A DNA stretch of 64,000 bases from Merdibacter massiliensis (GTDB taxonomy: Bacteria > Bacillota_I > Bacilli_A > Erysipelotrichales > Erysipelotrichaceae). Under the pieces are notes generated by a model. It worked only from the letters and a program-made list of their open reading frames with translations, searched no databases and was not told the origin of the DNA. Location of the stretch: positions 62,001 through 126,000 of the forward strand of contig NZ_LT699724.1 in the NCBI RefSeq assembly GCF_900155395.1. Reading direction: 5' to 3'. The position numbers and the translations under genes were made by a program. Positions within the stretch are counted from its first letter, which is position 1, and the number at the start of each line of letters is the position of its first letter. This document shows, in pieces, positions 1,374-3,462 of the stretch.

Positions 1374-1395
1374 AGAGGATGCTTTTTAGCGTCCT
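1374..1395. terminator. Bidirectional terminator between convergent genes
   Basis: GAGGATGCT (1374-1382) pairs with AGCGTCCTC (1387-1395), one wobble pair, flanked by A-runs on the left and T-rich sequence on the right. It serves the HAD gene on the plus strand and the methylase gene on the minus strand, overlapping the last codons of the latter. Confidence 0.6.
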
Positions 1396-2120
1396 CGCTG
1401 TTTTTGTCGCAATATTTCAAATGAAAAGACAGCAGTTGCACTGACGGCATTCAGTGCATTGCGCACCTCACGGCCGTAAGGGATATAAATGTTTTGCCTG
1501 CTTGCATTTTTCACTGTTTTGCTTAAACCACGCATTTCTCCGCCGATCGCAATACATAAGCGAGAGGGAAAAGAAAATTCATATAAACTAATGGCATCTT
1601 TTCTTTCGGCGCAGTAAAGGGGGATTTGCCGTTTAGCAAGTTCATGCAGAACAGACGTTAGGTCATCACAGCAGATTTGTGGAAGAAACTCGCTTGCACC
1701 AGCACTTCCTTTTACGATGATGCCTGCCGCATTTTGCCAATTGCGTTTGGAATAGATCACACCGTCACAACCGCTGGCATACAATGTGCGCAATACAGAG
1801 GCAAAATTAAATGGATCTTCAATCCCTTCTATCAATGCTAAAAAGCAATCGCCGGATTTGTCGCAGTCGGCTAGTGTTTGATAGCATCTTTCACCGCAAT
1901 AACATACGATCCCTCCATGTGTATGACCGTTTGCCAGGGCGTCAATTTCTTGCCTTTGACACTTGCGAATCGGTATTGATCGTTCTTGCGCCCGATATAA
2001 GATCCACGTTGTATCACGGTCTTTTTTCTTTTCGTCGACAATTACTTCATGCACTTCTCGTACATTGCCTAAGATGGCGGCTTTCACTGAAATATTTCCT
2101 TCTAGTAAATATCGTTCCAT
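1386..2120 (-). CDS. TrmH/SpoU-family RNA 2'-O-methyltransferase
   Basis: The 244-residue protein belongs to the SPOUT class, which methylates ribose 2'-OH groups of rRNA or tRNA using S-adenosylmethionine. The three SpoU motifs are visible: an LALIEGIEDPFNFASVLRT segment near residue 94 (N...R), IAIGGEMRGLS near 188, and IPYGREVRNALNAVSATAVF near 210, which form the knotted cofactor site. An N-terminal substrate-binding region of about 80 residues is present. In motif III the usual S-L-N is A-L-N. It is a single-gene unit reading toward the HAD gene. The exact nucleotide target cannot be told. Confidence 0.85.
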   Translation of the reverse strand: MERYLLEGNISVKAAILGNVREVHEVIVDEKKKDRDTTWILYRAQERSIPIRKCQRQEIDALANGHTHGGIVCYCGERCYQTLADCDKSGDCFLALIEGIEDPFNFASVLRTLYASGCDGVIYSKRNWQNAAGIIVKGSAGASEFLPQICCDDLTSVLHELAKRQIPLYCAERKDAISLYEFSFPSRLCIAIGGEMRGLSKTVKNASRQNIYIPYGREVRNALNAVSATAVFSFEILRQKQRGR

Positions 2121-2209: not shown

Positions 2210-2240
2210 TTGACAATCAATTTTATTCTGTGTATATGAT
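2210..2240 (+). promoter_or_regulatory. Sigma-A-type promoter for the NadE-like gene
   Basis: TTGACA at 2210-2215 is followed after 17 bases by TATATG (2233-2238), or after 19 by TATGAT (2235-2240). It lies about 30 bases upstream of the start at 2269. Confidence 0.7.
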
Positions 2241-2268
2241 AGAAACATAAAAAAGACAGGTGATGATG

Positions 2269-3462
2269 ATGAAGATTGCAGTTGTATCGATGGCGGTGGA
2301 TCCAGGAAATTGCCATGCAAATGTCAGATTGATGAAACAATATATCATAAGTGCGGAAAAAAAACAGGCGGATCTGATTGTTTTTCCGCAGAATGCTGTT
2401 ACAGGATATCCGTTAGGAGATCGATGGCTGGATAAAGATTTTTGTTCGTATGCAGACCGCTGGAATGAAGAAATCGCTGCGATGGCAAATAAGATCGCAA
2501 TTGTATGGGGAAATGTAAGATATCGGGGAAACCGCTGTTTTAATTGTGCTTTTTTTGCATATCAGCAGCATTTGGAAATCCGGGTAAAAGGATATGAAGG
2601 AACCATCTGCAATGATGCACGCTATTTTGACAGCATGGAGAATGCGGAATTGATCGAATATCAAAATGAGTTGATTGCATTAAACTTTCATGATGAGTTG
2701 CAGTTAGCGACCATGAATATTACTCTTGATGCGACACAGCATTCGATAGATCCTAAAGGAGCGACACAAGTATATGTCAATACGGGCGGATTTTGGCAGG
2801 ATGATAGAGGTGTTCATTTATTTGACGGCCGCTGTTTTGTAACGAAGGGACATAAAGTGCTGCATTTCAGCGAGTATGTGGAAGGATTGCATATTTGTAC
2901 GGAAGAACAAAGCATGGAGGTTTCTTTAGCTGGTCAGCAGAAGCGTTTGGCTTGCCTGTTTGATGCTTTAGAACAGAAAATAGGAAAATTCACATTAATG
3001 AATGATCCCTTTTCTAAAAATGTCTCCATGATATATCATCGTCCCTGGTTATGGAAAACGGATATAGGTCTTCCTGTATTTCAAACGGTTGATTGGGGCA
3101 AAAGAAAAAGCAGTTTTACTTTATTGGCTGATTTTACACCGGCTCAATTACTGGAAGCAAAAGTGATTCGTTCGTTGGATGAACTGACTTTAGAAGCAGT
3201 GATCATTGCTTATTATGAAGAAACTAACAGCATTGACGGTATCTGTCTTCGTTTATTTCAAAATAGGAATCTGTCGCATCAAATCGATGAGCTGTTAAAA
3301 GATTTGGGCACAGCAGAAGAAACAATAGTGAAAACATGGATTCAGTTTCAAAGAATAAATTTGAGTAATGAAATTGATAAAAAGTACATACAATATTTAA
3401 GAGCAGTGATAAGAGAGAATTTACAAAAAAGAATGTTAATGATGACGAACAATTCGATGTAA
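2269..3462 (+). CDS. Degenerate NAD synthetase-like protein (nitrilase-fold pseudoenzyme)
   Basis: The N-terminal 230 residues follow the amidase (nitrilase-fold) domain of glutamine-dependent NAD synthetase: ADLIVFPQNAVTGYPLGD near residue 38 matches the ADLVVFPELxLTGYPxxD motif, ARYFDS matches the KRYF element, and YVNTGGFWQDDRG plus LFDGRCFV match the N-Q-x-G-G-x-D/FDGxSxV region. The catalytic Glu is Gln (FPQ), the active-site Lys is not in register, and the ICEDLW segment carrying the Cys is absent. The ATP-pyrophosphatase domain with SGGxDS is missing entirely; only about 110 residues follow. At 397 residues it is well short of the 540-650 usual for NadE. GTG 2260 and ATGs at 2263 and 2266 are alternative starts; ATG 2269 best fits the ACAGGTG site. 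I infer a non-catalytic paralogue; its role is unknown. Confidence 0.65.
   Translation: MKIAVVSMAVDPGNCHANVRLMKQYIISAEKKQADLIVFPQNAVTGYPLGDRWLDKDFCSYADRWNEEIAAMANKIAIVWGNVRYRGNRCFNCAFFAYQQHLEIRVKGYEGTICNDARYFDSMENAELIEYQNELIALNFHDELQLATMNITLDATQHSIDPKGATQVYVNTGGFWQDDRGVHLFDGRCFVTKGHKVLHFSEYVEGLHICTEEQSMEVSLAGQQKRLACLFDALEQKIGKFTLMNDPFSKNVSMIYHRPWLWKTDIGLPVFQTVDWGKRKSSFTLLADFTPAQLLEAKVIRSLDELTLEAVIIAYYEETNSIDGICLRLFQNRNLSHQIDELLKDLGTAEETIVKTWIQFQRINLSNEIDKKYIQYLRAVIRENLQKRMLMMTNNSM

Follow-up and report, generated by a model that had tools for sequence, protein, structure and literature searches.

A NadE-derived protein of Merdibacter without the catalytic motifs of either NAD synthetase half, probably maintained as a pseudoenzyme

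Introduction

Previously characterised fused NAD synthetases all use glutamine, according to PMC3376133, in which a single-domain synthetase is also proposed as the partner of the stand-alone G- subunits of type C/R enzymes. A different kind of association is described for NadE2, of which PII is a dissociable subunit elsewhere (PMC7196632). Pseudoenzymes derived from metabolic enzymes are of a known kind. Among the matches listed in a literature search over titles and beginnings of abstracts, in which subscription journals are thinly covered, neither a NAD synthetase whose glutaminase half is dead nor a nitrilase-fold pseudoenzyme of this kind is reported.

The gene under study lies in a 64,000-nucleotide stretch of the Merdibacter massiliensis genome (the window; positions below are those of the window), and had been described in a first-pass annotation, made from the sequence alone, as a NAD synthetase-like pseudoenzyme that seems to be under selection, perhaps for a regulatory or binding role. 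This reading is borne out by the predicted structure, by homologues of the same length and by a complete nadE elsewhere in the genome.

Results

Frame and upstream signals

2269..3462, forward strand: coding sequence, 397 aa plus stop, NadE-derived pseudoenzyme (open reading frame list, relatives)
2258..2263, forward strand: ribosome-binding site AGGTGA (by eye)
2210..2238, forward strand: possible promoter TTGACA-17-TATATG (by eye)

The frame, which had been called intact, is open from 2269 to 3462 on the forward strand, in a genome of 2.47 Mb that is 99.85% complete. Other in-frame GTG/ATG codons are found at 2260, 2263 and 2266, and it is the ATG at 2269 that is aligned with the start codons of both Merdibacter relatives (L061 and L062). 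The ribosome site previously noted is also present, GGTGAT being found in all three Merdibacter species. The claim of a good promoter is unconfirmed: the site at 2210-2238 was recognised by eye only, is near-identical upstream of L062 and less so upstream of L061 (again by eye), is absent from the list of a promoter consensus scan, and the promoter-like sites around the gene are at chance level (6 versus 5.6 +/- 2.4 by chance). The scan placed a near-consensus promoter-like site, TTGCCA-17-TATAAT (11/12), at 2142-2170 on the reverse strand, upstream of a divergent methyltransferase gene.

The N-terminal domain

2269..2883, forward strand: nitrilase-fold (former glutaminase) domain, residues 1-205 (Pfam, NCBIfam, structural superposition, profile-profile comparison)

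In single-sequence searches the homology to nitrilases and NadE is limited to the first 80-140 residues. The protein exceeds the cut-off of Pfam CN_hydrolase (23.5 bits versus 23.2), matches PDB 5kha at E 1.8e-4, and matches the NCBIfam NAD+ synthase PRK13981 at E 6.4e-12, yet with 44.6 bits where the cut-off is 479. In profile-profile comparison, the N-domain profile of the lineage defined below (17 rows) aligned with the glutaminase domains of nine complete short NadE at E 1.9e-51, and with five NadE of the other type, that of the own genome among them, at E 2.9e-15. Likewise, residues 1-213 of a full-length model (pLDDT 82, pTM 0.76) superpose on both NadE and nitrilases, the comparison that had been suggested as a check: the NitN amidase 4izu aligns over residues 1-213 (Z 24.7, rmsd 2.2, 207 aligned) and NadE 5kha_B over residues 1-306 (Z 25.3, rmsd 3.4, 301 aligned). 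The nitrilase-fold half is thus as recognisable as had been stated; by fold and profile the protein is a member of the nitrilase superfamily, its residues 1-205 having the nitrilase fold of what was once a NadE glutaminase domain.

Lineage and locus

1386..2120, reverse strand: divergent gene resembling an rRNA methyltransferase (name by eye), conserved as a neighbour and marking the ancestral nadE locus

With the N-domain profile as query, 80 places in 79 of the 272 family genomes were matched at E <= 1e-20, and 17 of these places form one lineage in the tree (support 100/99). Thirteen of these 17 members carry an SGGLDS synthetase half, the remainder being the three Merdibacter proteins and L067 (the same as L040), and the glutaminase site is already dead in 14/14 members outside Merdibacter. 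The divergent methyltransferase gene adjoins the gene in 12 of the 14 loci of the lineage that belong to other genera (11 of 13 loci compared, plus L038; unseen at L066 and L070), and the Merdibacter gene is therefore the in-place descendant of an ancestral nadE. Common descent with nadE, at an orthologous locus, is what the sequences indicate. On the other side, an AI-2E-type permease gene (name by eye) lies downstream of the fused nadE in 10/10 loci with neighbours examined (L063-L066, L069-L072, L074 and L038, with L068, L073 and L075 left out); its place is taken by rubrerythrin in Merdibacter and by another transporter in L067.

L067 (2820-4184) is a 455-aa open frame of another genus (G066) with an eroded synthetase half, which keeps 20 of the 96 synthetase columns that are invariant in the 13 fused relatives. 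A single loss of the synthetase half common to Merdibacter and L067 is rejected by the methyltransferase tree (p-AU 0.0017), provided that the methyltransferase was inherited with the locus; the nitrilase tree leaves it unrejected (p-AU 0.41). In the methyltransferase tree L067 groups with L038 (86/87, not a starred branch), and from these trees the synthetase half was probably lost twice, independently.

Over all 80 places, Glu and Cys are both retained in 47 and Cys is missing in 32, while one place is cut by a contig end before the Cys point. The 32 comprise the 17 of the Merdibacter gene's lineage and 15 others, and 28 of them keep SGGxDS; judged from these alignments, the places matched by the N-domain profile in this family commonly encode fused NAD synthetases in which the glutaminase half is dead. 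The 15 others (L048-L056, L011, L113, L120, L135, L141 and L147) keep SGGxDS and are varied at the Glu position, where FPE, FPA, FPQ, FPR, FQS and FGE are seen; those placed on the tree (L048, L049, L053, L054 and L011) fall outside the Merdibacter gene's lineage.

The active site

2389..2391, forward strand: codon of Gln41, at the catalytic Glu position (alignments)
2587..2589, forward strand: codon of Lys107, most likely the retained catalytic Lys position (profile and 18-row alignments)
2689..2691, forward strand: codon of His141, at the position of the nucleophile Cys (alignments)

Glu, Lys and Cys are taken here as the catalytic residues of the glutaminase half of NadE. As had been annotated, Glu is replaced by Gln, FPQ being found in 17/17 lineage members (the three Merdibacter proteins and the 14 members outside the genus), and Cys is gone in 17/17; about 15 residues after His141 are also missing relative to complete short NadE. 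The loss of Lys, which had been claimed as well, is probably wrong. Lys107, invariant in 17/17 lineage members, falls on the catalytic Lys when profiles are aligned with either type of NadE, as it does in an 18-row alignment, and is placed in a gap by two other multiple alignments; it most likely represents the retained catalytic position. On this alignment evidence the complete Glu-Lys-Cys triad required in type F NadE and in nitrilase enzymes is absent from the 397-aa protein. Thirty residues, Gln41 and Lys107 included, do not vary between the three Merdibacter proteins and the 13 fused relatives, and invariants common to fused and orphan forms suggest that the pocket or the core matters without catalysis.

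A new enzyme, with the pocket rebuilt around Cys114, His141 and Asp142 together with Lys107 and acting on another substrate, might also be imagined on the retained nitrilase fold, since Cys114 is present in all three Merdibacter proteins but in 0/13 fused relatives, and His141 and Asp142 are likewise invariant in the former. Many invariants are expected of three sequences, however, 24 positions in residues 1-215 being invariant in them and absent from all 13 fused rows; a His at the Cys position is also found in the fused relative L039, and the stretch of about 15 residues following His141 is missing. We consider this the least probable of the readings discussed here.

The C-terminal part

2884..3459, forward strand: C-terminal part, residues 206-397, without ATP-binding synthetase motif, mostly helical in models

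The SGGxDS motif, which had been reported as absent, is found in none of the three Merdibacter proteins. In addition, the gene is not among the four matches of its own genome to the synthetase family PF02540, and this family does not appear in a Pfam scan of the 397-aa protein at E up to 10. The protein is not simply a glutaminase half, since about 190 residues follow the nitrilase fold. With residues 203-397 as query, here as in the profile comparison, the shuffles, the Pfam search and the stand-alone model below, a sequence search of 145 relatives recovered this C-part from the three Merdibacter genomes alone; a fourth, marginal match in G187 lies inside a transposition-ATPase-like frame (by eye) and was taken as chance.

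By eye, the C-part might be taken for a synthetase that shrank through deletion of its ATP-binding core, an idea supported neither by profile comparison with the synthetase half (probability 0.4%, 11 columns) nor by shuffles: against the synthetase tail, core and whole the best z was 1.68, and 21 of 300 shuffles were equally good. The C-part may still be a synthetase half diverged beyond recognition. Several NadE structures align past residue 216 of the full-length model, the alignment of which held fused NadE rows, with a possible bias in its C-part. Modelled alone from three rows, the C-part is mostly helical (mean pLDDT 76, pTM 0.66), with block means of 78-95 across most of the final 100 residues. 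Foldseek returned no PDB match to this model at E <= 0.001, an absence that does not establish a new fold, and the best row of a second structural comparison (Z 5.5, rmsd 3.2, 75 aligned) lies in the chance range for helical models. Pfam gave a CFAP58 coiled coil and PAS_10 under the cut-off, both missing from the two Merdibacter relatives, and no relative came out of a pattern scan over viral contigs.

Other NAD synthetases in the 17 genomes

A separate, two-domain nadE, the presence of which the first-pass annotation had proposed to check, is found in the genome, with Glu, Lys, Cys and SGGLDS all present and 827 bits against the PRK02628 cut-off of 473. All three Merdibacter genomes and G066 harbor a NadE encoded elsewhere than at this locus, by a frame 647-653 aa long (853 bits in G066, same cut-off). 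In 12 of the 13 genomes carrying a fused gene, the enzyme with the dead glutaminase is the sole strong NAD synthetase match (E <= 1.4e-32), although three of these 12 genomes are only 66-86% complete and a second gene could be missing from them. NAD synthesis in these 12 genomes seems to depend on a fused enzyme that has a glutaminase half unworkable by known chemistry, and which should therefore be ammonia-dependent. The thirteenth, Dielma G026, has another NadE beside a fused gene that keeps its synthetase half, and the loss is therefore no inevitable outcome of having a second NadE. Overall, the synthetase half is missing in 4/5 genomes with another NadE versus 0/12 without one, a contrast that represents few independent events.

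Weaker synthetase-family matches (E 7e-9 and up, mostly over Pfam's cut-off) occur in 16/17 genomes, and the nine identified are all GMP synthase, asparagine synthase (B) or MnmA; among these nine are the other three PF02540 matches of the own genome (E 8e-8 to 4e-6, over the cut-off), one each of GMP synthase, asparagine synthase B and MnmA. The sole PII domain found in the genome is located at G000:C21:139131-139445 (L154), within a 589-aa frame, and may be fused to another domain.

By analogy, the protein could be a dedicated regulatory or structural partner of its own complete NadE, through hetero-oligomer contacts of the nitrilase folds, with a logic comparable to that of PII on NadE2 (PMC7196632) in a genome that holds a PII domain. 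Nitrilase-family matches at E <= 0.001 occur at just two places in the genome, the complete NadE and the gene at 2269-3462, each exceeding the cut-off, and a NadE of 647-653 aa is present in each of the four genomes whose protein lacks the synthetase motif. The same co-occurrence is equally expected, however, if the other NadE did no more than allow the loss to happen; moreover, the two genes are on different contigs and the N-domain is only about 19% identical to the own NadE. Such a partnership is unlikely, but it is the strongest of the alternatives to the reading favoured below.

Conservation in Merdibacter

The 389-397 aa form is present at the same locus in 3/3 Merdibacter genomes examined, with a methyltransferase-like gene on one side and a rubrerythrin-like gene on the other (names by eye); homologues truncated to a similar length thus exist and the gene is not strain-specific, these three being the only sequences of the Merdibacter form found. 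Their N-domains are 61-68% identical and gap-free in residues 1-205, while synonymous differences are saturated or nearly so (pS 0.73-0.89; dS 2.9 for one whole-gene pair, the other two pairs being beyond the range of the formula). The C-parts show 23-42% identity and pN 0.39-0.54. For comparison, identity among the same species is 80-85% for the complete NadE, 68-75% for the methyltransferase and 96-97% for rubrerythrin. In a neutral simulation with 0.25 changes per base, 0/1000 whole frames were still open, with 4/1000 open for N-parts alone and 2/1000 for C-parts alone. The gene is constrained, the N-domain far more than the C-part, in agreement with the earlier impression of a selected gene, and purifying selection acts on a frame without catalytic residues, as is characteristic of a pseudoenzyme with a retained function. 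As a counterpoint, the low identity of the C-part means that part of the protein is weakly constrained, and the tree has a long stem branch, of 1.07 changes per column, compatible with a period of relaxed selection.

These last two observations would also be in line with a slowly decaying relic, drifting without function after its replacement by another NadE and left open by chance, as would the loss of the catalytic equipment of both halves and the resemblance of L067, with its remaining synthetase columns, to a half-eroded state. Against this, the frame is open in three species at or near synonymous saturation with conserved N-domains, no neutral frame stayed open as a whole, and the N-domain identity is close to that of the methyltransferase, though under that of the complete NadE. 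A relic is hardly any likelier than a new enzyme, and we give it very little credence.

Discussion

We are confident that the gene at 2269-3462 is orthologous to nadE, is under selection and no longer encodes a NAD synthetase. Taken as a whole, the statement that an ancestral nadE orthologue, dead in both halves, survives as a protein that binds or regulates without catalysis is the one we favour, with reservation, and the ligand or partner through which it would act is put forward tentatively. The genes around it suggest no pathway. We hypothesize that the starting point was the fused synthetase of the lineage, with its already dead glutaminase site. The presence of another NadE would have relieved the synthetase half, which would then have been lost, either replaced by a helical domain or eroded beyond recognition, while the dead nitrilase fold would have retained a use of its own after replacement by the canonical NadE. 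That use would most likely be binding. The protein would be a nitrilase-fold oligomer, in which the pocket (Gln41, Lys107 and no nucleophile) would hold a glutamine- or amide-like ligand uncut or, alternatively, the surface of the nitrilase fold would dock on a partner; the C-terminal helices would be the output, and the protein a sensor or a regulatory subunit rather than an enzyme.

It is conceivable, if doubtful, that the dead glutaminase domain of the lineage had already taken on a non-catalytic role of its own by the time the synthetase half disappeared. If true, this would explain both the persistence of the dead domain in fused, seemingly ammonia-dependent enzymes and the fact that in Merdibacter it outlived NAD synthesis, with a new helical domain carrying the output. 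The genomes form an ordered series, from the normal two-domain enzyme through a half-dead and seemingly sole NAD synthetase to a protein dead in both halves beside another NadE, and the role of a pseudoenzyme after the loss of its partner domain becomes testable in gut commensals. What sets the case apart is that neither half has a catalytic motif, that the intermediate stage is alive in relatives and that the loss seemingly occurred twice. In addition, the 12 genomes that appear to depend on a fused enzyme with a dead glutaminase bear on the statement that all fused synthetases characterised before use glutamine (PMC3376133).

Comparison with known systems

The protein resembles type F NadE, for which PRK13981 (NF010588) is the nearest model, in its homologous N-domain, in the predicted fold of residues 1-213 and in the orthologous locus of its relatives. 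Unlike type F NadE, it has lost the catalytic Glu and Cys, its ATP-binding half is unrecognisable, and it is shorter (397 aa against 546 in the model) and far below the cut-off, as mentioned above; complete fused relatives likewise score under that cut-off (205.7 bits in L064 and 186.6 in L070). With the stand-alone G- subunits of type C/R NAD synthetases it shares a G-domain homologue encoded apart from the synthetase, but its site is dead and the NadE of its genome already has a complete G-domain; in place of a single-domain synthetase to pair with, the only NAD synthetase found in the genome is that complete two-domain enzyme. The fused synthetases of Erysipelotrichaceae, such as those of Longicatena caecimuris (L064) and Dielma fastidiosa (L070), belong to the same lineage and have the same signature of Gln41, Lys107 and no Cys, the methyltransferase neighbour being common to L064 and the 397-aa protein and not to L070, but in contrast to the latter protein they retain the SGGLDS synthetase half. 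L067 is alike in having both halves without a catalytic motif, the same neighbour gene and a separate NadE, and differs in that it keeps traces of the synthetase half, which was probably lost independently in the two cases.
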